A stretch of 28,855 bases of DNA from Chrysochromulina tobinii. Taxonomy: Eukaryota; Haptophyta; Prymnesiales; Chrysochromulinaceae. The DNA is taken from the NCBI GenBank assembly GCA_001275005.1, contig JWZX01003154.1:1-28855 (forward strand), written 5' to 3'. The translations under genes and the position numbers were made by a program. Below, one piece after another: positions 1,858 through 20,190 of the stretch (position 1 is its first letter; each line of letters starts with the position of its first letter). The notes beneath the pieces were generated by a model. The model was not told where the DNA came from, did no database searches, and was given only the letters and a program-made list of their open reading frames with translations.

Positions 1858-2882
1858 ATGAACACCCGCGCCTCTTCGAAGCGCGGTGCCATCGAGCCCG
1901 CCAAGCGCCAGGCATCGAAGCGCGCTCGACCTGCTTCCTGGGAGGAAGTGCGCGCCAACCAAACTTCATCGGATGACGACAGCGACGACGGCTCGGGCGC
2001 AGACGAGCTCGAGCTCCGGCTCTTCCTGGCGAAGACGATGCGCGCCGATCTTTGGCCACTTTCGCAGACCCCGCCCGCGCGGTCCGTCGCCCTCGACCGA
2101 GCTGGGCCCTGGGGCGCAGCCGCGAGCGGCGTCGTCATCCAGGACTGTGAAGAGAGCGCCAAAGGCAAGGGCGTCTTTGTCACGAGACCCATCGGCAGTG
2201 GATCCTTCGTCGGTCTGTATGTCGGCGAGGTCTGCACGCAGAGGATGCGCAACCTGCGCCACTACGACCGCCAAGGCCTCCATGCACCCACGGTGTACGA
2301 GCAACGAGATCTCGATGCTCGCATGGCACGACTGGACTCGCTCTCGGCCGACCAAGGAAAGCCAGCCGGTGGCTCACACAACGGCGGCGCGTACGTCTTC
2401 AGCCTGCTGCCCGAGGCGAGCGAGGCCGTCGAAAAGCACCTCGAAACGGCTGCGAATGACGAACTCCTCAGCTGCATCGACGCGGAGGACCCTTCGCGGT
2501 CGTCGTGGGGACGGTACACTGATGACCACTGATGAGCTCTGATTGCCTCCCTCATCAGGCGGGCGACGCACTTTGGGTCCCTACATGAACTGATGACCAC
2601 TGATGGCCACTGATGAGCACTGATTGTCACTGATGAGCACTGACGACCACCGATTGCGATGGCTGACCACTGAGAGCTTCCCTCATCAGGTACATCAACC
2701 ACGCGCCCGCGCACAGCACGAGATGCAACCTCGCCCCGAGGGTGGACTTTGGGAGGCAGCTCGTCTGGTTCGAAGCGAGCCGCGACATTGCCGTTGGCGA
2801 GGAGCTCAGCTTTGACTACGGGCCGGACTACAACGTGCCCTGGGCCGGCTCGGCCTCGGCCTCTCTCGTGACCGTTGCCTAG
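1858..2882 (+). CDS. SET-domain lysine methyltransferase (2 exons: 1858-2513, 2690-2882)
   Basis: Splicing 1858-2513 to 2690-2882 gives a 282-residue protein ending at TAG 2880-2882. The N-terminus (1-50) is basic, then acidic and serine-rich, consistent with a nuclear protein. The SET domain starts near residue 100 with SAKGKGVFVTR followed by SGSFVGLYVGE. It continues to RYINHAP (219-225), which corresponds to the family motif RFxNHSCxPN, and ELSFDYGPDY (258-267), which corresponds to ELTYDYG. These parts bind S-adenosylmethionine and hold the catalytic tyrosine. The splice junction falls inside the RYINH motif (cg|g), and joining the exons there restores it, which supports the intron call. 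No post-SET cysteine cluster is visible and the insert between the two halves is short. The usual NHS is NHA here. Substrate, histone or other, cannot be told from the sequence. The start at 1858 is the first ATG of the open frame. Confidence 0.8.
2514..2689 (+). other. Intron of the SET gene, CTGATGA-repeat type
   Basis: 176 nt, GT at 2514 and AG at 2688-2689. The body is a run of roughly 10-nt units of the type ACTGATGACC / ACTGATGAGC / ACTGATTGTC. The 3' end is CCCTCATCAG. An identical internal copy of that 3' end sits at 2550-2558, and just after it the segment TACATGAAC (about 2582-2590) resembles the start of exon 2 (TACATCAAC). The intron begins GTACA and the next exon also begins GTACA. 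Confidence 0.8.
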
Positions 2883-3248
2883 TAAGCTAGAGTATGGTAG
2901 TAGGGAGCCGTGCTTTTCCCTCGACATACCGCGTGACAGCTAAGTCTAGCCCGTACGTACGTACTTTTTGGCCTAGCCTCGGGCTCTCTCACGTGCATTC
3001 GGCTCTCGTGACGCCGTTGGATGGATGCCCGGTTCCGGCCTTCCGCCAATGATTGGGTTCCGTTGCACAATTGTTCCGGCTTCCGCTGTGACATTAAACC
3101 ACACGTTTCAGCAGAACTAAGTGATTGACACACATAAGGGCTAAGATGGGGAGCTTACTAAAACTCGTGTCGTGTGTATAATTTAGGTGAGCGGGCACCT
3201 AGCCGAGCGAACTCAAGACTAATGACTGCCCTTCAACCTTTCGTGGGC
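2883..3248. other. Convergent intergenic region, no gene seen
   Basis: 366 bp between the SET gene stop and the stop of the minus-strand kinase-like gene, lower in GC than its surroundings. It should hold both 3' UTRs. I see no coding signal or stable structure. Confidence 0.6.
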
Positions 3249-3830
3249 TTAGCTGAGGAGCCATCCGCCCAGCACGACCGCCGCGATAGCGAGGTTGTCA
3301 AACTCGCCGCCCAGCGCTTCGGCCACCGCCGCGAGCGCGGAAAGTCGCAGCCGAGCGAACGTCGACAAGTCGAAGGTGATGGAGAGGAAGGTGAAGATGA
3401 AGACGGCCGCGGTGCCAGCGACCGTCTTGCTGCCGTACCATGCTGGGTTGTAGGAGGGCCCCAGGAGCTGTGAGCACGCCTTTCCGACCACGGCACCAGC
3501 GGGGTCGGCAAAAAAGAGCGGCGCCAGTACAGAAGGCGGCAGCTCGAGGAAAAACCACGCAGAGACCAGGCAGAGGTAGACGGTGATCCCTACGTCTCGG
3601 GGCCGCGAGAAGCGGAATGGGGGCAGCGGCGAGAGGTTCCACGTCATCGCAATCGAGCTGCCGGCGACGAGCCACACAAATACCCTGGCGGGCAAGCTCC
3701 TGGAATTGAGCAGCATGATGCCGAGTCCGCAGCCTGCGTGGCACAGTTTCCGAGCCACGAAATTGTTGAGCGGTCCCAGCTCGAGTACCACGATCCAGAT
3801 CACGATCGAGAGCATGATGATGGAATCCAT
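3249..3830 (-). CDS. Phytol/dolichol kinase-type (VTE5/SEC59/CdsA-related) integral membrane protein
   Basis: 193 residues, ATG at 3830, TAA at 3249. Family landmarks appear in order: R-K-L-C-H (residues 27-31) matches the RKxxH motif of phytol and dolichol kinases. RDVGITVYL comes near residue 78. ADPAGAVVGKACSQ near 109 matches the Asp-containing nucleotide-binding loop. YGSKTVAGTAAVF matches the G-x-K-T-x-x-G segment, and EALGGEFDNLAIA matches the C-terminal ExxxxxxxDNL motif. Between them are hydrophobic segments suited to membrane spans. These enzymes use CTP to phosphorylate a polyprenol; phytol kinase salvages phytol for tocopherol in plastids. The protein is shorter than typical plant enzymes (about 300 residues) and lacks the first membrane spans and any targeting sequence, so an upstream exon may exist. 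An in-frame stop lies about 20 nt upstream of the ATG. The exact substrate (phytol, farnesol or dolichol) is open. Confidence 0.72.
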   Translation of the reverse strand: MDSIIMLSIVIWIVVLELGPLNNFVARKLCHAGCGLGIMLLNSRSLPARVFVWLVAGSSIAMTWNLSPLPPFRFSRPRDVGITVYLCLVSAWFFLELPPSVLAPLFFADPAGAVVGKACSQLLGPSYNPAWYGSKTVAGTAAVFIFTFLSITFDLSTFARLRLSALAAVAEALGGEFDNLAIAAVVLGGWLLS

Positions 3831-4124
3831 GACACAACAGCCGCGTAAGCTCGTTCACTGCGCAAGTGCCGAAGCCAAGCTGGGTGTTTGAGCAAGCAAG
3901 CCAGCAGGGAGGGACCAAAAGCTCGCGCCCTACGCGGCAAAAATACCCGGTACAGTTTGTCGAAGCGTCGCAGACGGCCGATCCTCACGACACCCCAAAC
4001 CCATGGATACTAACCTATTTGGTCTTGTGCGCGCGTTCTGGGAGACGAAACTGGCGACGATAGAAAGGAACGCCTCTTGACCCGCTGTGCCGGAAATCCA
4101 GCGGCGGTCCGCCCGGTCTTGCCG
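3831..4124. promoter_or_regulatory. Shared upstream region of the kinase-like gene and MAT1
   Basis: About 294 bp between two divergent start codons, so it must contain both promoters and 5' UTRs. I see no TATA box. It could also hide a first exon for either protein, since both look short at the N-terminus. Confidence 0.4.
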
Positions 4125-5160
4125 ATGGACCGCGTGCTCGAATTCGACCGCGATTACCGAAGACAGGTGCGCCGAGCATACTACCTGCTGCCTGAGGACT
4201 TTGCGAGCGCGCGCGAATACAACGACTACCTCGAGGAGTTTGAGGATCTCGTCGAAGAATTCATCAAGGAGGAGACAAGGCCGATGGCGCGACAGAAGCT
4301 CGACCGGCTGCGGATTCAGTGGGCGACACAGACGGCGCGCAACCTGGCCACGTACGACGGCGCGCGCATGCAACGCGCGGACGCGATCGAGCACGATCGT
4401 CTCGCGCAGGCTCGCGCCGCCCAGGAGCGCCGACTTGCCGAGGCCGAGGAGCAGCGATTGAAGGTTGAGAAGCGCAACGCGCTGCAGCAGGGCATCAGCG
4501 CCGGCAAGACGTCGGTGGAGCAGGCGCGCGCCGACCTGCGCGCGCATGCAGCCGCTTTCGCGGGCGACGCCGCAGCCAGGGCGGCCGCAGGCGTGCCACC
4601 GACTGCGTCCGGAGCGGCCGCGCAGCATGAGCAGCAGCAGCAGCAGCAGCAGCGCCGAGGAGAAGCCAGTGGCACGTACGTGCCCGCGGCGCCTGCCGGC
4701 AGCGCACGCGGCGCCAGCGGCGCGCCCATGCTCGTTCAGCCACTCGACCCGGCCGCGGCCAAAGCGGTGGAAGCGAGAGTACCTTCATTGATGGTACGCT
4801 CCCTGATGACCCCTGATTGCCATGAGTGTCCCTTGAGTGCATTTGAGTACCTTCCTTGATGGTACGCTCCCTGATGACCCCTGATTGCCCTGAGTGTCCC
4901 TTGATTTCATAATTGCCTCCCTCATCAGGTACGCTCCCTCCTGGCGAGCACGGAAGCGTACGAGGCGGACGCGGGCGCCCTGCAGCGTGTACGCAAGGCG
5001 GGCGGGTACGATGCGGACTTCTCCTCCGGATCTAGCGTGGATGTGCATGCAAGTGCTCACCACGGCGCCCTCCCTTCCCCACAGGTACGATGCGGACTTG
5101 TGGCGCGTACGCTACCGGATCGAGGCGGGGCTCTTGAGGCATCCAGCCGCGGTCTTGTGA
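4125..5160 (+). CDS. MNAT1: CDK-activating kinase assembly factor MAT1 (3 exons), RING not visible
   Basis: Exons 4125-4778, 4929-5005 and 5085-5160 join to a 268-residue protein ending at TGA 5158-5160. MAT1 holds CDK7-cyclin H together and ties this kinase to TFIIH. Residues 1-60 match the MAT1 core: RVLEFDRDYRRQVRRAYYL, then [22 protein letters not shown], very close to the family's [22 protein letters not shown]. A long charged coiled coil follows (about 60-130), then a low-complexity Ala/Gly/Pro linker with a seven-glutamine run. Exons 2 and 3 restore a MAT1-like C-terminus, RKAGGYDADLWRVRYRIEAGLL, comparable with the AGGY...RAL..GLF end of known MAT1. That match and the agreement of phase support both introns. 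Typical MAT1 has an N-terminal C3HC4 RING of about 50 residues; no such cysteine pattern is found upstream in any frame, so the RING is lost or lies on an undetected exon. Confidence 0.8.
4632..4652 (+). repeat. (CAG)7 run encoding polyglutamine in MAT1
   Basis: Seven perfect CAG codons inside the low-complexity linker. A pure codon run of this kind is a microsatellite and probably length-polymorphic. Confidence 0.9.
4779..4928 (+). other. MAT1 intron 1, 68-bp tandem duplication plus CTGATGA-type repeats
   Basis: 150 nt. A 68-bp unit starting GTACCTTC is present twice (from 4779 and from 4847). Each unit contains GGTACGCTCCCTGATGAC (4793 and 4861). Exon 2 itself begins GTACGCTCCCT at 4929, so the exon start occurs three times in a row. 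The 3' end is CCCTCATCAG, as in the SET intron. Phase 0. Confidence 0.85.
5006..5084 (+). other. MAT1 intron 2, flanked by a 16-nt direct repeat
   Basis: 79 nt. GGTACGATGCGGACTT occurs at the donor (from 5005) and again at the acceptor (from 5084). The intron therefore starts with a copy of the next exon's first 15 bases. The rest of the body is unrelated to the CTGATGA family and ends in a normal pyrimidine-rich CCTTCCCCACAG. Phase 2, and splicing gives the conserved MAT1 tail. Confidence 0.8.
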
Positions 5161-6659
5161 AGTGGCGTCATAGCGGGCTGATTGTGATGCACCGTGGCGT
5201 CATAGCGGGCTGAGCGATGCGCGCGCGCGAAAAGTGCGCGCACTCCATCCCGACTCCGGACCCCGAGATTACCCGAGACGCGAACGCCCTCTGTGTTACA
5301 TGCCGGGCGTACGAGACTCTCGAAGTCTCGAATCGATTCGTGAGGTCCGTCGCGTCGGTTGTCCAGCGTGCCGGGGTCGCGGCAATCCTGGCAATCGACT
5401 TACAATCGGTCATGACGTTTCGCGCGGGCCGGCGGTAGGTCGTTGGGCCACCCTCCCCGCGCCACTGGAGCGCGCCCCCCGGCGTGTAAGGTGCGTATAG
5501 GCGTAAAGTACCCGCGCCGTTTAAACGCCCGGCGAAACCGACCCGGGCGCGCGCAGCGCCCGGGGCATTGCGTTACGTTCGTCGAAACGTTTTCGCTTTT
5601 TCGCTTGGCTATTTGGCCTTTTTGGCGCAGGACGCGTGTCCCGCGCTCACCTCCACGCAGCTGAATTAAGAATTCCGGGCCGAACCGGCAACAGTCTACA
5701 GTAGGACAGCCACGCGGCACGACGCGTGGTGCACGGTATGCTGTATGCCGGAGCCGCTAGGCACTAGGGATTGCGTGAAGGTTACTCCGCGGAGAAAGTG
5801 CGCGCGCATCCGCGACTCGAAACTCTCACTTGCAGGCGCTGCTCTCAATGCTCGCGTCTCCGCTCGCCGGCCTCCCGCGCTCTGCCCTCTGGCTGTCTGG
5901 TTGTGTTCACATGGAGCGCGCATGCACACGCGGAGGCCTGAGCAACGCAGCCCTCTATCTGGCGGTGATCTGGCGGTGATCTCCGGAGGGCCCACGCGCG
6001 GCTCGGCCGTCCGGGCGTCGTATCGGCATCGCGCCCTCGCGGCCGTTACGTCGCGCCCTCGTGACCGCGTTGTCGTCGAATTGCACGTCGGGGCATGATG
6101 GGCATGGACTCGCTCAGGCGCGTCGTTCGACCCCTCCGATCTGCTGCGCCGTCGCCGAGCCTATCGTCTGTGCCGGGTTAGCGCCACACTAGCCTTGCCC
6201 CGATGCATGCAAGCGCTCAAGTCGGCGCCACGAGCCGTACACACATTCGGAGAGGCGCCCGACACACGAGGCCCCACGCGTTCCCCCCCCCCTCTGGTCA
6301 CGAAGACGTCACACCGCCGCACACACTTACGTTCCACAGCCCCCTGTCGGATTCACAGGGTATTCACAGGGGGCGCGCCAGTCCAGGGCGCCGAGTTGAG
6401 CGCGTGCATGCAGCCGAGGCCTCTCGCTCATCATGGCCACATCGGTGGCCCCTATCGTCTCGCCTATCGTCTCCCCACCCCGCCTTTCCTCTCGTCCTCT
6501 CCTACATATTCGTCAAAGGTCCGAATCTGGGCCGCCAGATCGTCGAGCTTCGTCAAGACCCCTGCGGCGGCGTGCCTACATGCCGGTACGCACCTGCGCA
6601 CCTACTCCGTACTGATCACGCAGAAAGGCAGCCGTTGGCCCAGCCGTTGGGCGCCCCGA
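5161..6659. other. 1.5-kb stretch without a supported gene
   Basis: All open frames here are short, have arginine-rich compositions typical of GC-rich shadows, and show no family I recognise. I see no tRNA, 5S or spliceosomal RNA pattern. It contains small inverted repeats, for example GCCCCCTGT (6339-6347) with ACAGGGGGC (6366-6374), and CGAGACT (5312-5318) with AGTCTCG (5324-5330). It also has a tandem TGGCGGTGATC pair near 5960-5980. It may hold a long 3' UTR of the U-box gene. Confidence 0.5.
5162..5213 (+). repeat. 20-bp direct repeat just after the MAT1 stop
   Basis: GTGGCGTCATAGCGGGCTGA occurs at 5162-5181 and 5194-5213 (period 32). It lies in the presumed 3' UTR. No function is evident. 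Confidence 0.85.
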
Positions 6660-7521
6660 CTAATGCCCCTCCTTGGTCTTCTTCATAAGGAAGTCCGGAC
6701 CCTTAGCGATGAAATCCTCAATCATGGAGCGGACTGTACGGTTGGGGCAGAGCTCCGAGGCATCGAGCGGCAGGTTGGTCGACGGGTCCGTCTTCTTATT
6801 CGACAGCCACTCGGTGATGGCATCGTAATCATACGTGACGCCATCTGGGGTCATCGCGGGCTGGCGCATGATGCACCCGGTGATCGGGCAGAGGAAATAG
6901 TCCGGCACATCTAAATCTGTGCGAGGAGCGGCGGCGGGAGCGGAGCGGGCACGGACGCGGTGAGGGAGGGATGAGGGAGTGGTGGCGGATGCGCGCGCCC
7001 GAGCGCCCACGAATGGCGTCGGCAGAGGGAGAGGGCGCAGGGGCAGTGTGCGGGCGGGCCTCGCCGCGCGCGCGCGCTGCCGCTACTGCCAGCGATTATG
7101 GGACGTCGTAGTGGGCACGTGCGTTTGGCGCACCGTCGATCGATTCAGGCACTGCAATCGGCGGCGGCCAGCTCTTCGCATTCCTGCCATTTTCTTGTGT
7201 CGCAGAGTTGGCGTCCACAAGCATCTGCTTGCCCGGGCCCAGTTGAGGTGGGCAGCGCAGCCACACCAGCTGGCCTCCAAGATTGGCCTGGAAACGGTCT
7301 CCGGGCCGCACGTTTACAGGAATGGTGACGGCGTACTTTTGGACGCTGCTCGGGCGCACGGGGATCTGCACATGCAGCGTCGAGCCCGCGGAGCTTCCGT
7401 GGGGCACAATAACCATCGTCAGCTGACCGTCGAGCGAGGCCTGGAACTGCTGGCCGGCACCGATGCCTGGCGGCACAGTGACTGCGAATGTCTGCATCAT
7501 CGAGCCGTTGCGGGATGCCAT
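6660..7521 (-). CDS. U-box E3 ubiquitin ligase with N-terminal PPG-GQ repeat module (2 exons)
   Basis: Exons 7521-7134 and 6916-6660 on the minus strand join to a 214-residue protein. Residues 10-95 hold two copies of a module of the form AVTVPPGIGAGQQFQASLDGQ and AVTIPVNVRPGDRFQANLGGQ, each followed by a second P-G strand. Such modules are common in protist proteins, often beside other domains. Exon 2 encodes a U-box: DVPDYFLCPITGCIM, then MTPDGVTYDYDAITEWL and LPLDASELCPNRTVRSMIEDF, matching the family's core without zinc ligands. U-boxes recruit an E2 enzyme and promote ubiquitin transfer. The intron (7133-6917, 217 nt) is inferred: donor GACG|GTGCGC, acceptor CTCGCACAG|AT, phases agree, and joining gives ESIDDLDVPDYF. 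Without splicing the first part ends at an in-frame stop soon after. An alternative is two separate genes, but the second has no good start. Confidence 0.75.
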
Positions 7522-7607
7522 GAGAGAGTGGGCACGATTGGGATGGGGGACGGCGCGCTTCCAGAGAGGAAGAGAAAAGACCTTCCGCCCTGTTCGCCTT
7601 CTTCCAA

Positions 7608-7635
7608 TCTTTCACACAGACCTTTGTGTGAAAGA
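7608..7635 (-). other. Perfect 11-bp hairpin upstream of the U-box gene
   Basis: TCTTTCACACA (7608-7618) pairs perfectly with TGTGTGAAAGA (7625-7635) around a 6-nt loop. It lies 87 bp upstream of the U-box ATG, probably in its 5' UTR or core promoter, where it could slow scanning ribosomes or bind a protein. Confidence 0.75.
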
Positions 7636-7803
7636 ATGCGTACCGTAAGAACCACCAGGTCACGCCTATCGAATGTGCTCCGGAAGCCAGCAGTGGAGGA
7701 CGGGAGTCGATGGAGATGGCGGAGGGGGATCCATCTAGAGGCGACACGTCATAAATGCTGACATACGTGCCCTCGGAGAACAGGTAGGTGAGAAGTAACG
7801 GGC

Positions 7804-7860
7804 CGATCTCGAGCCGATGAGCGCCACTCTTACGCCGAAGAGGAAATCGGCTCGAGATCG
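7804..7860. other. Perfect 15-bp inverted repeat with 27-nt loop
   Basis: CGATCTCGAGCCGAT (7804-7818) is the exact reverse complement of 7846-7860. It sits between the U-box gene start and the stop of the small protein at 8043, so on the minus strand it would be in the latter's 3' UTR. By chance a perfect 15-bp arm at this spacing is very unlikely. Confidence 0.8.
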
Positions 7861-8042
7861 ACCGTGGCGTCAAGCATAAAAAAGGGATAGGGGAAGAGGA
7901 AGAGGGGAGACATAGACTGAAGAGCTCGAGGCCGGTTGGCGCCGCGTCACGCTCGTTGAGATGACCAACACGAGAGATCAAGCCCTCGCTGCAGTCGCGT
8001 GAGCAACGCGGTAAGGATACCCTTTCTCTCGCGCCGTTCAAA

Positions 8043-8465
8043 TCAGCTCCCGCTCGCGTCCCCCTCCGCCAGTCGTCGCTTAGCAATTGCCAGCGCCTTC
8101 CGTTGAGCGCAACTCTTCTGCTTGCCACGCTTGCCCTTCTTCTTCTTGATGCCAGCCGTTACGCCGCCGCTGCCCTCCGCCATCTGCATCGAGATGTTCT
8201 CGTCGCCCGCCATCGCCTCATCATCGTCATCGTCATCAGCCTCGTGCGCCGCCGACGGCGCCCCCAGCTCGACACCGACAACACCCTCGCGGCCCATGAC
8301 GACGCCGCCGTCGCCGCCCTCAAGCGCTAGCGCAGCCTTGAGCGCAGCCTCGCTGCCGCTGCCGCCCGCGCCGTCGCCATCCCGCGTGGCACACCCTACA
8401 GGCACCCTCACACTCTGTTGCTCCCTCTCTGCGACCTGCGCCTGCGCCGCCGCTACGGCATCCAT
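8043..8465 (-). CDS. Small hypothetical protein, acidic middle and lysine-rich C-terminus
   Basis: 140 residues, ATG at 8465, TGA at 8043. I do not recognise a family with certainty. The first 75 residues are Ala/Gly/Val-rich. Then comes an acidic run with six consecutive aspartates (about 78-84), and a basic tail, IKKKKGKRGKQKSCAQRKAL followed by AIAKRRLAEGD. Acidic runs plus such a K/R tail are typical of nucleolar or ribosome-assembly factors, but this is only a resemblance. The ATG directly abuts a pentanucleotide repeat shared with the divergent RMDN-type gene. It could be real or partly fortuitous; the asymmetric charge pattern and clean start favour real. Confidence 0.55.
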   Translation of the reverse strand: MDAVAAAQAQVAEREQQSVRVPVGCATRDGDGAGGSGSEAALKAALALEGGDGGVVMGREGVVGVELGAPSAAHEADDDDDDEAMAGDENISMQMAEGSGGVTAGIKKKKGKRGKQKSCAQRKALAIAKRRLAEGDASGS

Positions 8466-8495
8466 GACTTGACTTGACTTGACTTGACTTGACTT
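8466..8495. repeat. (GACTT)6 microsatellite in a 54-bp divergent promoter
   Basis: Six perfect GACTT units fill more than half of the 54 bp between the minus-strand ATG (8465) and the plus-strand ATG (8520). TTGACT is also the core W-box recognised by WRKY-type factors, so it may be a binding-site array; this is an inference. Confidence 0.85.
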
Positions 8496-8519
8496 GCTTG
8501 TCTCGCCGCGGCCGCAATC

Positions 8520-9512
8520 ATGCGCCGACTCCTTCGGCCCCTCGTTTGCTGCAGCGCGCCGCCGCTACTCCGCGTCGCAACTCGTACGCTTCGCACAGCC
8601 GCCGCCATCGCCGTTCCAACACCTTCTGGTCTCTTCTCCTGCACCGCAGCCGCGTTGGCAGCTGCTGCCGCCACCGCCGCCACCTCCGCATTGACCCCTT
8701 CGCAGTCCAAGGCGGCCCCGCCGCCTACGGCCGAGGCTGACCGGCTCTTCGATGCCAACCAGTACGAGCCACTTGCCACGCTGTTGCGCGCGTCGCTCGC
8801 CAAAGCGCCCGATGATACCGAGCTGCTCTGGCGGCTCGCCCGGGTGTGCAAGAAGCTCGCAGATGAGGAGAAGCCCAAGTCAGCCGCAAAGCAGGCGCTC
8901 ATTCGGGAGGGCGTTCAGTCGTCTGAGCGCGCGCTCGCGCTGAAGCCAGATTGTGGGCCCGCGCACAAGTGGCAGGCCATCATGCTGTCCGAGGTGGGCC
9001 ACTTTGAGGGCACGACGACGACGATCAAAAACTCCTTTGTGGTGCGTGCGCACTTTGAGAAGGCGGTGGAGCTCTCTCCAAAGGACGCCACTTCGCGCCA
9101 TCTGCTCGGCCTGTGGTGCTTCGAAGTCGCCAAGGTGCGCGCACGCGTGCGTCGCATGCCGTGCTCGCCTGTGCTGCTGCTGCGCGCTCCATGCGACATG
9201 CTCACTGCTGGCGCTGAGCCCCCGCGCTCCCTCTCTCAATCGCAGCTCGGCTGGCTTGAGAAGAAGGCGGCCGCGGCGCTCTTCGCGACGCCTCCGACGG
9301 CGACTTTCGAGGAGGCGCTCGGCCACTTTGAGGCGGCCGAGGCCATAGATCCGGGCTTCTACCCGAAGAATCTACTCCTCATGGCAATGGCGCATGCCAA
9401 GCTAGGCCACAAGGCAGAGGCGGAGCAATGGCGCCAGCGCTGCCTCGCAGCAAAGCCGCGGACGCCCGAGGACGAGCAGACGCGCAAGGAGGCCGAAAAG
9501 TGGGTGCCATGA
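8520..9512 (+). CDS. RMDN: Regulator of microtubule dynamics (RMDN/FAM82)-type TPR protein, mitochondrial (2 exons)
   Basis: Exons 8520-9134 and 9246-9512 give 293 residues. The first 30 residues are rich in Arg/Leu/Ala with no acids (MRRLLRPLV...LLRVATRTLRT), a good mitochondrial presequence; residues 40-60 are Ala-rich and hydrophobic. The body is a close match to animal RMDN1-3: ADRLFDANQYEPLATLLR, ELLWRLARVCKKLAD, ALKPDCGPAHKWQAIMLSEV, IKNSFVVRAHFEKAVELSPK, LLGLWCFEVA, ALFATPPTATFEEALGHF, EAIDPGFYPKNLLLMAMAHA. RMDN proteins are TPR proteins linked to microtubules and, for RMDN3, to ER-mitochondria contact. The 111-nt intron (AAG|GTGCGC...TCGCAG|CTC) is a multiple of three with no in-frame stop, so the frame reads straight through. 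It is called an intron because the inserted 37 residues interrupt the conserved CFAVA-LxW junction. Confidence 0.88.
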   Translation: MRRLLRPLVCCSAPPLLRVATRTLRTAAAIAVPTPSGLFSCTAAALAAAAATAATSALTPSQSKAAPPPTAEADRLFDANQYEPLATLLRASLAKAPDDTELLWRLARVCKKLADEEKPKSAAKQALIREGVQSSERALALKPDCGPAHKWQAIMLSEVGHFEGTTTTIKNSFVVRAHFEKAVELSPKDATSRHLLGLWCFEVAKVRARVRRMPCSPVLLLRAPCDMLTAGAEPPRSLSQSQLGWLEKKAAAALFATPPTATFEEALGHFEAAEAIDPGFYPKNLLLMAMAHAKLGHKAEAEQWRQRCLAAKPRTPEDEQTRKEAEKWVP

Positions 9513-9951
9513 GGCCCCAGTGAGATTGGGGTCGGTAGTCGGGGGGCTGGGGCAAGCACTGTGTTACCTTAAGCCACTGTGTCGCCCCGGGCCGGGCCGG
9601 GGCCGCCGGGCGGCCGCGCGCGGCGCGCGGCGCGGGCGAGGCGCGGGGGGGTAACTTTACGTTACGCCGATCGGATCCGGCCGAGATCACATATCTCGAT
9701 TCATGTAGTCTCAGAGATCGAGGGATTTTGGCTAACGCAGGAGGCCCGCTGCGGAATCACGAACCGGTCCGTTGGGCTGGCGCGCAACGAGCGCGCAGGC
9801 GGAACCGCCGCACAGTCACGCACACGCAATGCACCCCCTACACAGAGCGTTGCCAATATAATACAGTTTGGTCTGTGTTCAGTGCCGCGCCACGCCATTT
9901 TGCCTCGGCGCGGCCATGTGATTACCACCCGCTATCGCGAATGCGACCGCT
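9513..9951. other. Intergenic, GC-rich, no gene seen
   Basis: 439 bp between converging stops of the RMDN-type gene and the COX-like gene. It contains an extreme G/C block (about 9588-9652) with short self-complementary runs, then less biased sequence. It should hold both 3' UTRs. Confidence 0.5.
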
Positions 9952-10489
9952 CTACTCGGCCGACTCCTTGGAGGCGCGCAGTGTAGCGTAGTATTTGTCG
10001 TACAAAGCCTTCTCCTGCGCGTGCGACATGCGCCACCAGAAGGCCATGAAGAGGCCGAGGGCGGTGGCCTCAACGGACATCTGGATGCCGAGCGACTGCG
10101 GACACGAGCCGATTCGGCGAGCGCGTCAGCCAAGAGACACAGAGCAGGGAGATAACAGGCAGCGGTCTTTGCATGGGCGCAGCGCCAGCAGCTATGGCTT
10201 GAGCCCAGGAGAGTCGTCGTCTGCGACGGATAATCACATTAATGTGACGGCCGACGCGTCAGGCGGCTGGCCGCGCGCTGCACGGGGCCCAAGAGATGGG
10301 GCGTCACCCAGCATCTCTGGCCCTCCAATTGAATCGCGTGTGCCGCAACGCCAAGGTGGAATGCGGCGGAGCGGCGCGGCGTAGAGTTGGGCGGCTGCGC
10401 ACCCGCGCACGGCCCGAGAACTCGGCCGCGTAGCGCACGCCCTTGAGGCGCAGCGCCGTCGCGTTCCTCAGTGCAGCAGCGAACATCAT
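9952..10489 (-). CDS. COX5C/COX6C-like small cytochrome c oxidase subunit (2 exons, tentative)
   Basis: Exon 2 (10095-9952) encodes 47 residues ending at TAG 9952-9954: SLGIQMSVEATALGLFMAFWWR followed by MSHAQEKALYDKYYATL. This matches the layout of plant COX5C and animal COX6C: one membrane span, then W-(K/R)-x-x-H, a charged stretch and a Y-rich segment. A candidate exon 1 (10489-10439) encodes MMFAAALRNATALRLKG and joins in phase through GTGCGC and TCCGCAG. The spliced protein is 64 residues, close to the usual length of COX5C. The exon-1 donor is a choice among several and is the weak point; the 343-nt intron is the longest in the window. The subunit would sit in the inner mitochondrial membrane. 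A pyrimidine-rich CTTTCAG 9 nt upstream of the ATG suggests a further 5'-UTR intron. Confidence 0.55.
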
Positions 10490-10706
10490 GACCAGGGACT
10501 GAAAGAGAAGGATGTTATGTGGGCCTGTGCAATCTGCTGTGGGGAAAAGTTGACGAGATTTGGCGGACTGTGCAGCGGGTTGGCCCCGTCGAAACGAATT
10601 GAAAGAAGGTGAAGTTAAACTGCTCTCACCGATGGTTCTCATCCCCCTGAGAACAAAATTCCGTCCTTCGCCACTCCTTCGCCCGCGCTTGCTTCTCAGC
10701 GCGCGC

Positions 10707-12595
10707 ATGTCGGTGTACAAAAAGGGAGACAAACGCGAGGACGACGAGCCGAAGAAGAATGAGTTAGAGAAGGGGCTCGACGCGCTCGGCAAGGGAATGG
10801 AGGACATGGCCAAGGGCATTTCCAGCCTCTTTGGCGGCGGCAGCAAGGACAAGAAGTGGGAGAAAAAGGGCGGCGGCCACACGCTCGGCACGGCTGCGGA
10901 CGCGGAGGCAGCACGCCAGGCGCGGATGGCATCACTCGATAAGGCGGGTGCGGCTTCGTCCTCCTCGACGCCGCGGCAGCCCGCGCGGCCGCCACCGCCA
11001 GCCGCCGCCGCCGCGATCGCTGCAGCGGAGGCACGTGCAGCCGGTGGCAACCAGCCAAGGCGGGCGCCTTCGGCGCCGGCGGCGCCGGCGGCGCCGGCGG
11101 CGCCGGCAGTCGAGCGTGGCCCATCGGGTGCCTCGGGCGGCTTCGCGGGGCCGGGCCGCACGACTCAGGCGCCCGAGGCAAAGTACGCGTCTGAGATCAA
11201 GATGCTGCAGGAGATGGGTTTCAGAGCCGACGCGGCGGTGCGCACGCTCGTCGCATGCAACGGCGACATCGAGCAGGCGGTGAGCGTGCTTTCGGCCGAT
11301 GAGAGTGCCGCATCGATGCCCGGTGGCGGCGGTGGCAGTGCCGCGGCGGCCGCGGTGGAGCGGATGGCGATGCTAGCGGAGGCGTCAGAGGCGAGCGCCG
11401 AGCACGCGCCCGCGCTCGGCATGGCGCTGGCGGGCATGCGCGGCGGCGGCGCATGCCTCGGCATCATCCGCAAGCTCATCGGCAACGTGCGCGACCATCC
11501 CGACGACCCCAAGTACCGCAAGGTGCGGTTGACGAACCCCAAAATCGCCGAGGCGCTCGGGGGGTTACTCGAGGGCCTCGCGCTGCTCAGCGCGTGCGGC
11601 TTTACGTTCGACGCCACGGGCGAGTACGCCGAAATGAGCGACGCGGGCGCGGGCGCCACGGCCGCCCTTGAGGCCGCGTGCACAGCGCTCGACGAGGCGA
11701 TCGCGTGCGCGGCCTCAGGAGGTCCACCGGTGCCCGTGGGCCCCTTCGACGTCAAGGTAATTGCCTGATGATGGCCTGCTGATGGCATGCTGATTGCAGG
11801 CTGATTGCGGCCTCGGGAGGTCCGCCCGTGCCCGCGGGTCCCTTCGACGCCAAGGTACTCGTGGCGCCCGAGGTCGGCTGATGATTGCATGCTGATGATT
11901 GCATGCTGATGAACGCATGCTGATGAACGCATGCTGATGGCCTGCCTGATTGCGCCCCTCATCAGGTGCTCGTGGCGCCCGAAGGCGGCGCCCCGATGCG
12001 CTTCGACGAGGTGGGCGATGACTTTTATCAGATCACGCCCGCCGAGGCCAAGGCGCTCCTCGACCTGGCGGCAGCCAAGCGCAAAGAGGAGGAGCAGTTT
12101 AAGACCCGCGAGACGCGGGAGCTCGAGGCAGCGCGTCGCAAGCGCGTGTATCGGAAAGCCATGATCCGCGTGCGCTTCCCGGATGGGGTGGTGCTTCAAG
12201 GCACCTTCAGCTCGAGCGCCACCGTGGGCGCCGTGCTTGCCTGGGTCGAAAGCTCGATGCGTGAGCCCGGCCATGCCTTTGAGCTCGCGATCGCGCGTGG
12301 GCAGCCGCTCAAGGAGCTCAGCGAGACGCTCGAGACGGCGCAGCTCTGCCCGGCCGCCCTGCTCAACTTCCGCTCGCCAAGTGAGGAGATGCTCCAGCCG
12401 CCGTACGTGCACGCGCAGCTCATGCAGCAGGCCCAGGTGCTCGGTCAGGAGCAGATCGAAATCCCACAGGGGCTCACGGTGGAGGAGGCGCGAGCGTGGC
12501 AGGAGGCGCGCGACGGCGCGCGCCGCACCAAGCCGTCGGCGTACGGGCGGCCGGGTGAAGGTGGCGAGGGGAGGAGGCCGCGCTGGATGAAGTGA
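10707..12595 (+). CDS. UBA-PUB-UBX domain p97/CDC48 cofactor (UBXN6/PUX type), 2 exons
   Basis: Exons 10707-11756 and 11966-12595 give 559 residues. The N-terminus is lysine- and glutamate-rich. A linker with four 9-bp APA-coding repeats follows (about 11078-11106). Residues about 158-197 form a UBA domain (KMLQEMGFRADAAVRTLVAC then NGDIEQAVSVLS). Residues about 235-310 form a PUB domain (GACLGIIRKLIGNV, then PKYRKVRLTNPKIAEALGGL and LLSACGFTF). Exon 2 carries a charged coil and a UBX domain (about 405-487: AMIRVRFPDGVVLQGTFSSS...LLNFR). PUB and UBX both bind the AAA ATPase p97/CDC48; UBA binds ubiquitin. The protein would thus bridge ubiquitinated clients to p97. Start 10707 is preferred; an in-frame ATG at 10632 would add 25 residues. 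The phase-0 intron separates PFDVK from VLVAPEGG. Confidence 0.88.
11757..11965 (+). other. Intron of the UBX gene with CTGATGA repeats and exon ghost
   Basis: 209 nt, GTAATT...CCCCTCATCAG, phase 0. It has two blocks of CTGATG-type repeats, 11764-11806 and 11877-11957. The second is a 14-nt tandem of CTGATGATTGCATG and CTGATGAACGCATG. Between the blocks lies a copy of the joined exon sequence (see the separate repeat entry). Confidence 0.88.
11809..11880 (+). repeat. Ghost copy of the uninterrupted UBX exon junction inside the intron
   Basis: Bases 11809-11857 repeat 11711-11759 at an offset of 98 with 43 of 49 bases identical. The copy then continues GTACTCGTGGCGCCCGAG, matching the start of exon 2 (GTGCTCGTGGCGCCCGAA at 11966). 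Read in the exon frame, four of the six differences in the first part are synonymous and two are Val to Ala. The copy therefore represents the gene as it would look with no intron at this place. Confidence 0.9.
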
Positions 12596-12765
12596 GGACA
12601 CCGTTGTGAGCCACACGACACGTGCTTGCGTGGCAATGCGGGGCAATGGCAATGTTCGGAGCAGGTTCTGGTGGCTAGGGTCACTGGAGCATCGGGGGGA
12701 ACACAATGAGTTACATGTTTGCAGAGAGTTCAGGTGTCCCGCAGAGCGTTGTGATTTGTTGATCA

Positions 12766-12820
12766 CTTGACTTGACTTGACTTGACTTGACTTGACTTGA
12801 CTTGACTTGACTTGACTTGA
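12766..12820. repeat. (CTTGA)11 microsatellite
   Basis: Eleven perfect CTTGA units, the same pentamer as at 8466-8495 in another register. It lies between the UBX gene stop and the Cys-rich membrane protein gene, 142 bp upstream of the latter's ATG. Confidence 0.9.
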
Positions 12821-12961
12821 CTGAACACGAGTTTCACAGCCTGGCGAGCTGGGCCGGCAGCCCTTGTTCCTTCGCGCGTTGCAGCTTGATCCCACGCGTG
12901 GGGTCCGCTCGCACCAAATTAGCGCTGGTAGCACTCCGACCTGTCCCCACGACAGGCGCGA

Positions 12962-19135: not shown

Positions 19136-20158
19136 ATGGCGCCGCTCACGCTGCGACTCGCATTAGTCCTCACCCCAGCACTCGTCGCTGCATTCCACGC
19201 CGTCATAAAACCGACCATGATCACAAAGATGCCAGTACATTTTGCCCAAGACGGGAAGGTTGCGCTGGTTCCCCGCATGGCCAAAGTTGCACAACCTTCC
19301 TTAGTGTCTGGGCCGCAAATGATCCTCACTGGACCAACGGGCTTCTTGGCATGCTGGGCGGTGGCCGCAGCATCGTGTGCGCTTGCATTCGTGCGTCAAG
19401 CCTACGTATTCAGCCTTTCGTATGGGCTCGCGATGGCAGCCATTGGTGGTATTGCTTTGGCGATTCCTAGCAGCAGCATGCTGCTGTCTGCACATGCCGC
19501 GCTAGTATGCCTGTACGGCCTTCGACTCTTCGCCTTCCTGTTCTGGAGGCAGTTCGGCCAGGACTCGGGATGGGGTCGGCGCGTCGCTGCGCTCGACAAG
19601 ACACCGCGCCTCGAGCGCGTGCCGGTCATCTTGTCAACGTCACTCTTCTACGCGCTTCTGGCGTCGCCGCTGCTCTTCCACGTGCAGTCCGGCGGCTTCC
19701 GGTCGGCACCGTCGTCCGCAATAGCATCGGCTGGCTGCGTCGTCGCGGCCGTCGGCCTTGTGCTCGAGGCGGTTGCGGATCAGCAAAAGTCGCTCTTCAA
19801 GATTGCATTGAGGACTGCGGGAGCCGCCGATCGCCCTTTCACGGGAGGCGTGTACGCGTTTTCGAGGCACGCCAATTACCTCGGCGAGATCGTCTTCTGG
19901 GTGGGCGTGACGGTGGTGGGGCTGCCAGCCCTGCTCGCGCCGGGAGTGCGCTGGTATGCTCGGATTGCTCGTGCCTTTTCTATGGCCCTCGGACTGATTG
20001 GGATTGTCTTCATCATGACGTCCGCCACTAAGCGTCTCGAGGGGAAGCAGGCGACGAATGCGGCGACAGTCTGGCCCGTGCTGGGCAAGGATGGCGAGCT
20101 TGACTCGTACAAAAAGTACGTCGAGCGTTCCGGAGCGTTGGTGCCACGCTTTGGCTGA
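19136..20158 (+). CDS. DUF1295 / steroid 5-alpha-reductase C-terminal-like membrane protein
   Basis: 340 residues from ATG 19136 to TGA 20156-20158. The N-terminus MAPLTLRLALVLTPALVAAF looks like a signal peptide ending just before a Phe. This resembles the bipartite plastid targeting signal of algae with secondary red plastids. Several membrane spans follow (about 68-120 and 163-215). The diagnostic DUF1295 segment is present: GGVYAFSRHANYLGEIVFWV, matching the family's GxWxxSRHPNYxGE, the part homologous to the NADPH-binding C-terminus of steroid 5-alpha-reductase and isoprenylcysteine methyltransferases. Upstream LVLEAVADQQKSLFK also fits the family. The end, TKRLEGKQ...YKKYVERSGALVPRF, is the standard DUF1295 finish. 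The substrate is unknown; a lipid or isoprenoid double-bond reductase is a reasonable guess. Confidence 0.82.
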   Translation: MAPLTLRLALVLTPALVAAFHAVIKPTMITKMPVHFAQDGKVALVPRMAKVAQPSLVSGPQMILTGPTGFLACWAVAAASCALAFVRQAYVFSLSYGLAMAAIGGIALAIPSSSMLLSAHAALVCLYGLRLFAFLFWRQFGQDSGWGRRVAALDKTPRLERVPVILSTSLFYALLASPLLFHVQSGGFRSAPSSAIASAGCVVAAVGLVLEAVADQQKSLFKIALRTAGAADRPFTGGVYAFSRHANYLGEIVFWVGVTVVGLPALLAPGVRWYARIARAFSMALGLIGIVFIMTSATKRLEGKQATNAATVWPVLGKDGELDSYKKYVERSGALVPRFG

Positions 20159-20190
20159 TGATGGCTGATGATGTGGCTGATGATGGCTCC
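20153..20190 (+). repeat. CTGATGATGG repeats over and after the DUF1295 stop codon
   Basis: Three copies of GGCTGATGATG in 38 bp, beginning at the stop codon itself. The unit is the same CTGATGA motif that builds the repeat-type introns of SET, MAT1 and UBX, here outside any intron. Confidence 0.8.

Follow-up and report, generated by a model that had tools for sequence, protein, structure and literature searches.

The origin of new introns is a long-standing question, and introners, i.e., families of introns which share sequence between unrelated genes, are now mostly credited to DNA transposons; where target duplications are present in the known cases, they comprise 3-9 bp (PMC9860276). In the same survey, low-complexity families were removed by hand, and similarity near both splice boundaries was required. 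Paired nicks with overhangs of 43-50 bp lead to small tandem duplications of up to nearly the whole overhang, and joining by polymerase theta leaves microhomology and inserts copied from the flanks, sometimes as a patchwork (PMC8355091; PMC8654963). The haptophyte Chrysochromulina tobinii contains about one intron per gene on average (PMC4580454). Introns are described here from a stretch of 28,855 nucleotides of this organism (contig JWZX01003154.1, positions 1 to 28,855; called the window in the following) and from its genome, of which 53.15 Mb in 2,253 contigs were searched. Three introns of the window, in the genes for a SET-domain protein, MAT1 and a protein with PUB, UBA and UBX domains (UBX in the following), belong to a family with repeated CTGATGA-containing units and the 3' end CCTCATCAG (family 1); the second intron of MAT1 belongs to another family (family 2). 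Introns of both families would appear to have originated, with some likelihood, from the repair of staggered breaks in exons, during which the template was switched to a nearby intron and back.

Exon duplications and genome-wide abundance

Many introns repeat, from their 5' splice site onward, the beginning of the next exon, usually over 10-50 bases. These flanking duplications point to the mechanism more than any other feature, and were absent from the initial annotation of the window. The sample of sites was not random, since stretches were picked around listed matches, mostly of these two families, and swapped partners (five rounds of swapping) served as control; an earlier control with random AG|GT positions at the same loci, of which 55/386 had a score of at least 9, was contaminated by repeats and real introns and was replaced. 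A score of at least 12 was obtained for 87 of 178 sites reading CCTCATCAG|GT in family 1, versus 2 of 887 swapped pairs, and for 30 of 52 sites in family 2, versus 1 of 255 swapped pairs. Judged by this control, the flanking exon is directly duplicated in about half of the sites, as would be expected from staggered breaks.

Lengths were taken from a "clean" set of 58 out of 250 family-1 sites, from which tandem copies and scores below 11 had been dropped. The duplications of this set were 11-48 bp long, with one of 104 bp and a median of 22 bp, and 49 of the 58 start with GT; in family 2 (36 simple cases of 59 sites) they were 10-41 bp long, with a median of 25 bp. The lengths of duplication and insert were inversely related in the clean set (Spearman -0.54), and 45 of its 58 introns measured 67-110 bp, which may reflect a length limit of splicing. 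The donor in these 58 cases reads GTRCGC (C at +4 in 36, G at +5 in 34, C at +6 in 33), the usual donor being GTRAGT. Following CCTCATCAG, GC was present in 21 and GA in 7 of the 250 sites (L001-L128), and several duplications start with GC or GA; thus, non-GT donors may be in use.

The initial annotation had claimed that introns of unrelated genes share sequence, a claim which depended on an excess of the repeated words in the whole genome. The excess proved to be large: CCTCATCAG occurs 3,915 times versus 144 times for the reversed word, tandem pairs of CTGATGA (CTGATGANNNCTGATGA) occur 4,526 times versus 3 times in the control, and the combination CTGATGA-N40..70-CCTCATCAG gave 541 matches (overlapping matches of one site counted separately) versus 0 in the control. 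Family 2 surfaced in a search for direct duplications without CTGATGA words. Its layout consists of GCATGCAAGTGCTCACCACGGCGC, pyrimidines and CCCCACAG, and it includes MAT1 intron 2, which had been taken for ordinary and unrelated to the others; this intron does lack CTGATGA, yet it shows the same footprint, with a duplication of 15 bp. The core of 24 bases, with one base free, was found at 553 places (reversed control, 0), and CTCACCACGGCGC-N4..34-CCCCACAGGT at 537 versus 0. In both families, the introns of unrelated genes therefore share sequence beyond chance, as is the case with introners. A likeness near both splice sites, as in introners, was not found; the introns with duplications start with a copy of the local exon, mostly of 10-50 bases, which is unique to each site.

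The end of family 1 was not found in viral contigs, a set from which records near this genome may be excluded. The 24-base core of family 2 was present once among records filed as viral (L169:4495-4518), at the very end of a record of 4,554 bases, which may represent a mis-joined contig. CTGATGA is also the core of hammerhead ribozymes and resembles box C of small nucleolar RNAs; both candidates were rejected, the window being without Rfam matches at gathering cut-offs.

Junctions, insert ends and local copying

Microhomology was determined by predicting the next bases of the donor from the repeat period and comparing them with the end of the exon copy, with shuffled pairing as control. The left junctions of the clean family-1 set showed a mean of 1.89 matching bases (28 periodic cases of 58) versus 0.54 after shuffling (0/2000). 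A strict set of 60 insertions was then chosen regardless of the 3' end; 29 of these end in TCATCAG and 31 elsewhere. The means of the strict set were 2.24 at the left junction (37 usable; 0.53 shuffled; 0/5000) and 2.28 at the right junction of the 31 inserts with other ends (18 usable; 0.54 shuffled; 0/5000). Eleven of the 60 cases were dropped by hand (seven repeat-like duplications, three ending in AG, one likely on the other strand), which left 20 inserts with other ends; the means were now 1.97 on the left (31 usable of 49; 0.52 shuffled; 0/5000) and 1.85 on the right of the inserts with other ends (13 usable of 20; 0.61 shuffled; 0/5000). Besides the exon duplications, the junctions thus show microhomology above the shuffled pairing, which is also expected from repair of staggered breaks.

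The left end of family-1 inserts has no fixed sequence, and the number of units varies. Two layouts were distinguished. In type A, GT is contributed by the first exon copy and AG by the insert; type B introns have AG|GT from the end of the first copy and, as their acceptor, the AG which closes the second. At one type B site (L012, - strand, 5636) the frame runs through when the insert is taken out and contains stops when it is left in; at another (L010, - strand, 8176) it is open from the upstream acceptor onward, and a third site (L019, + strand, 7175) resembles them in layout.

Locality was tested with 104 family-1 sites on 21 long stretches (GC 0.640) by permutation, comparing sites on the same contig strand with those on different ones. 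Sites on the same contig strand were more alike, both with tandem copies (104 sites, 0/2000 permutations) and without them (90 sites, 0/2000). When pairs were separated by at least 500 bp, the two measures of likeness gave 7 and 1 of 2000; the values were 94 and 64 at 1 kb, and 1263 and 499 at 2 kb. The likeness of neighbours holds within about 1 kb; it is marginal at 1 kb and gone at 2 kb or more. A variant, GCACTCCTCATCAG, is common to five sites in L019, and the inserts of L168 and L149 contain, by eye, re-copied pieces of the adjoining exon ahead of the module. Some family-1 loci are clearly expanded arrays (L010, L020).

Gene structures in the window and support for splicing

The three introns which had been described for the SET, MAT1 and UBX genes were all located in the window at or near the places given, each with CCTCATCAG at its 3' end. 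This word occurs four times on the + strand (2550, 2681, 4920, 11957), every time inside one of these introns, versus 0.1 expected per strand from the composition of the window; on the - strand it occurs once, outside of them. CTGATGA was found 18 times on the + strand (1.0 expected), of which 12 were within the three introns. CTGAT or CTGAC in the units of family 1 presumably represents a branch-point-like word and is a candidate for this function. The features are as follows:

1858..2513, + strand: exon 1 of the SET-domain gene; joined to 2690-2882 it yields a protein of 282 aa with a Pfam SET match (E 4.2e-14)
2514..2689, + strand: SET intron, family 1 (CTGATGAnnn units, 3' end CCTCATCAG); leaving it out restores WGR|YINH in the SET domain
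4125..4793, + strand: exon 1 of the MAT1 gene; homologs P0144-P0150 with PF06391
4794..4928, + strand: MAT1 intron 1, family 1, 3' end CCTCATCAG; two tandem copies of exon copy plus element, with GTACGCTCCC at 4794, 4862 and 4929
4794..4804, + strand: first copy of the exon duplication GTACGCTCCCT, which gives the predicted 5' splice site
4929..4939, + strand: last copy of the exon duplication GTACGCTCCCT, start of MAT1 exon 2
5006..5084, + strand: MAT1 intron 2, family 2; direct duplication of 15 bp (5006-5020 / 5085-5099); leaving it out restores GG|YDADLW
5045..5068, + strand: family-2 core GCATGCAAGTGCTCACCACGGCGC in MAT1 intron 2, a match to the genome-wide pattern
10707..11756, + strand: exon 1 of the PUB/UBA/UBX gene; the spliced protein matches Pfam PUB, UBA and UBX
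11757..11965, + strand: UBX intron, read as two successive insertions, 3' end CCTCATCAG; relatives P0124-P0126 are uninterrupted across the junction
11757..11806, + strand: first inserted stretch of the UBX intron (el1), CTGATGG/CTGATTG units
11807..11877, + strand: trapped copy of the uninterrupted UBX exon junction, A' (48 nt, 6 mismatches to 11709-11756) plus B' (23 nt, 3 mismatches to 11966-11988)
11878..11965, + strand: second inserted stretch of the UBX intron (el2), CTGATGA units, 3' end CCTCATCAG
11966..12595, + strand: UBX exon 2; the spliced protein has Pfam matches

The proteins were restored in full when the SET, MAT1 and UBX introns were left out. Of the two CCTCATCAG words in the SET intron, the second (2681-2689) was tried as splice site and restored the protein. 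For MAT1 intron 1 a start at 4779 had been given, but the residues corresponding to VPSLM, which is encoded by 4779-4793, are retained in the relatives P0148-P0150, and the start was therefore moved to 4794, where the direct duplication GTACGCTCCCT also begins. Without intron 2 (5006-5084), MAT1 reads as in its relatives. A Chrysochromulina gene model (jgi/Chrpa1) matches 63% of the length of the UBX protein with 97% identity. For the UBX intron, a reading as types A and B in turn is possible, i.e., exon A, insert, A' + B', insert, exon B; from their sequences, A' and B', which adjoin without an intron between them, would appear to be a trapped image of the uninterrupted exon.

A comparison with relatives had been suggested in the initial annotation. 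The proteins of more distant relatives are uninterrupted across the intron sites of UBX and MAT1, although these records may be transcripts, whereas those of the near relatives P0121 (97%), P0144 (98%) and P0146 (88%) stop just beyond the same boundaries, in an apparent intron; close populations thus appear to have introns at these places, too. The record P0145, a protein from another population, runs into the MAT1 intron (window 4794-4928), with an apparently longer trapped exon copy. The inner structure of this intron therefore seems to differ among populations.

Further support for splicing came from a gene for Lon protease (L022), which carries many such introns. When 13 of them were left out, 641 aa without a stop were obtained, versus 48, 62 and 68 stops in the unspliced frames, and the spliced prediction matches the PDB entry Lon 3m6a with E 2.2e-155 (residues 80-497 and 553-638). 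P0001, a protein of 482 aa from a JGI record of 2,054 bases, is 100% identical over nine of the Lon junctions and over a tenth downstream; TCATCAG is the end at five of the nine. In the genome, the stretch which starts with the first residue of P0001 and includes the last of the nine introns measures about 2.9 kb and is longer than the record. The record would therefore be intron-free at these places, the simplest reading being that of a presumable transcript, and as such it supports splicing. The evidence for splicing relied on here is that from Lon, UBX, MAT1 and SET.

Other repeats in the window include three CTGATGATG-like units around the stop codon of a gene (20150-20190), outside any intron seen, arrays of the 5-base unit CTTGA at about 8465-8497 and at 12765-12822, and a repetitive reading frame with units of about 126 nt (1-1676), which by eye resembles tetratricopeptide repeats.

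Origin of the introns and comparison with known systems

The DNA itself shows that exon copies begin at the predicted 5' splice site, that the left end varies, that the junctions have microhomology, that neighbours within about 1 kb are alike, that some inserts end elsewhere and that proteins are restored without the introns; from these we infer the break with its overhang, the polymerase and the course of events. The exon would be opened by two nicks some 10-50 bp apart or by a staggered break of this span; an end would pair by a few bases with a nearby intron which is rich in CTGATGA or bears GCATGCAAGTGCTCACC, and would copy it, slipping at times into the 10-nt repeats. Following return to the exon, fill-in would duplicate the overhang, and those products which splice would be kept by selection. 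A type A intron would take its GT from the first exon copy, and its AG, pyrimidine tract and branch point from the copied module; a type B intron would take AG|GT from where copy 1 ends and its acceptor from the AG ending copy 2. Type B, the microhomology on the right and the short range of copying are all accommodated by break repair with template switching, provided that selection keeps only splicing products, and the footprint is common to two unrelated families. Matches to A-family DNA polymerases lie on two contigs of the genome, and a third contig has a single POLQ_helical match. It is perhaps an even question whether introner families can arise without a transposon, in which case a genome-wide invasion by introns, several thousand of them and from two or more unrelated families, would stem from template-switch repair copying the acceptor modules of neighbours, with the exon duplication as donor site; such introns could be regarded as self-spreading repair patches.

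Several observations weigh against this origin by repair. Nine of the 58 clean family-1 cases start without GT, three of the 58 are too short (21-44 bp) for introns, and no duplication at a score of at least 9 was detected in 72 of 178 family-1 GT sites and 20 of 59 family-2 sites; age could explain such sites, but so could another route. The copy flanking the SET intron is GTACA, i.e., 5 bp with a score of 5, which is the level of chance, and the median microhomology is only 1 base. A frame test with many introns was uninformative (a unique frame at 3 family-1 and 2 family-2 sites with the shortest window; frame kept in 1/3), and a join test did not discriminate, since 26 of 46 family-1 sites were open across the join versus 26-28 with a shifted join. 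Locality accounts for the spread within genes but not for the reach of the family to many contigs. A gene with both the helicase and the polymerase of Pol theta was not shown among the genome matches, and an empty allele from a close strain was not found. Finally, the exact CAG|GT end of type A, which had been used as a search target, needs selection or AG|GT microhomology, whereas a template of intron RNA gives it directly.

Such a template would be provided if excised intron RNA were retrotransposed, which we consider unlikely. Reverse transcriptase would prime at a nick before GT and copy from the CAG end, a second nick 10-50 bp away would produce a variable duplication, and the exon copy would become the 5' splice site. 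A layout like that of type A is expected from target-primed reverse transcription, and the fixed 3' end, the variable truncated left end, the variable duplication and the left microhomology are all in agreement; RVT_1 matches number 26 in the genome at E <= 0.001, with no link to these introns. It was ranked lower because of the inserts with other ends: type B and other inserts end away from the 3' end of the intron, at which copying should always have begun, and their right junctions have microhomology. The restriction of likeness to about 1 kb and the exon pieces re-copied within the two inserts of L168 and L149 also speak against it. Growth of minisatellites in old introns, with 10-nt repeats expanding and the common 3' end being the local acceptor consensus, would account for the tandem units, often uniform within an intron, and for the expanded arrays of L010 and L020, and CTGATTG followed by pyrimidines and CAG makes a plausible acceptor. 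Growth does not yield exon duplications at intron edges, however, or the trapped uninterrupted exon junction in UBX, or a 24-base core common to 553 places. As the sole cause it is contradicted by the swapped-partner test and, taken as a whole, improbable; it is likely a later step.

A non-autonomous DNA transposon, i.e., an introner of the type of miniature inverted-repeat transposable elements, would possess CTGATGA/TCATCAG as short terminal inverted repeats, with a transposase making the target duplication. The CTGATGA on the left and the TCATCAG on the right are reverse complements, their combined pattern had 541 matches with none in the control, and many known algal introners are so read (PMC9860276). 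The length of the duplication, however, is not fixed in either family (11-48 bp and one of 104 bp; 10-41 bp in family 2), and two defined ends were not found, the inverted repeats being of 7 bp only, with a variable left end and unit number. Type B inserts are without the right end, and in family 2, where by eye no such inverted repeats are present, the footprint is the same. Judged on duplication lengths and ends, transposases not having been searched for, this origin is disfavoured and would appear very improbable. The designation "introner-like", which had been proposed for the introns, is fitting; the mobile element which it implied is not in keeping with long variable duplications, the lack of a fixed left end, other 3' ends and microhomology at the junctions.

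In two abundant families, exon duplications which are long and of variable length, microhomology and copying from nearby thus form a footprint of break repair. If this is true, break repair, as in Daphnia, and introner families, which are two separate explanations, become joined; repair alone could mass-produce introns where a genome already has good acceptor modules, and a class of introns would have escaped those surveys in which low-complexity introns are discarded or short target duplications are expected. By the selection rules of the survey mentioned above (PMC9860276), family 1 would likely be missed. In the accessible parts of the introner literature naming Chrysochromulina, haptophytes or microhomology (PMC9860276, PMC7789003, PMC8469720), with supplements and subscription papers outside this scope and family 2 not searched in print, no such case was found.

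In common with introners (PMC9860276), the introns of unrelated genes share sequence here, a target duplication can give the 5' splice site, and the host is an aquatic protist; the duplications are longer than the 3-9 bp present there. In an introner of Chrysochromulina sp. from the same survey the duplications comprise 4 bp, the 5' splice site is part of the element and the 3' splice site is co-opted, which is the reverse of the situation described here. The introner elements of Amoebophrya (PMC7789003) are likewise repeated introns with direct repeats of variable length at the exon borders, but in those elements the direct repeats comprise 3-5 nt, the inverted repeats measure 8-20 nt and the splice sites are non-canonical. 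Gain by tandem duplication of AGGT (PMC3443670) resembles type B, whose splice sites are the two copies of a duplicated segment bearing AG; here, the copies are parted by copied repeats, and the acceptor of type A comes from the insert. The systems of paired nicks and polymerase theta (PMC8355091; PMC8654963) were studied in laboratory animal cells and worms, where, unlike here, no introns were made. Gain from staggered breaks in Daphnia (PMC4202315) shows introns of similar size (mean of 77.7 bp) and direct repeats, and was read as repeated staggered double-strand breaks. The repeats shared with the exon are 4-12 bp long in Daphnia, and most inserts there are AT-rich and of unknown source; in the present case the duplications are longer, and the inserts belong to two families whose copies number in the hundreds to thousands.

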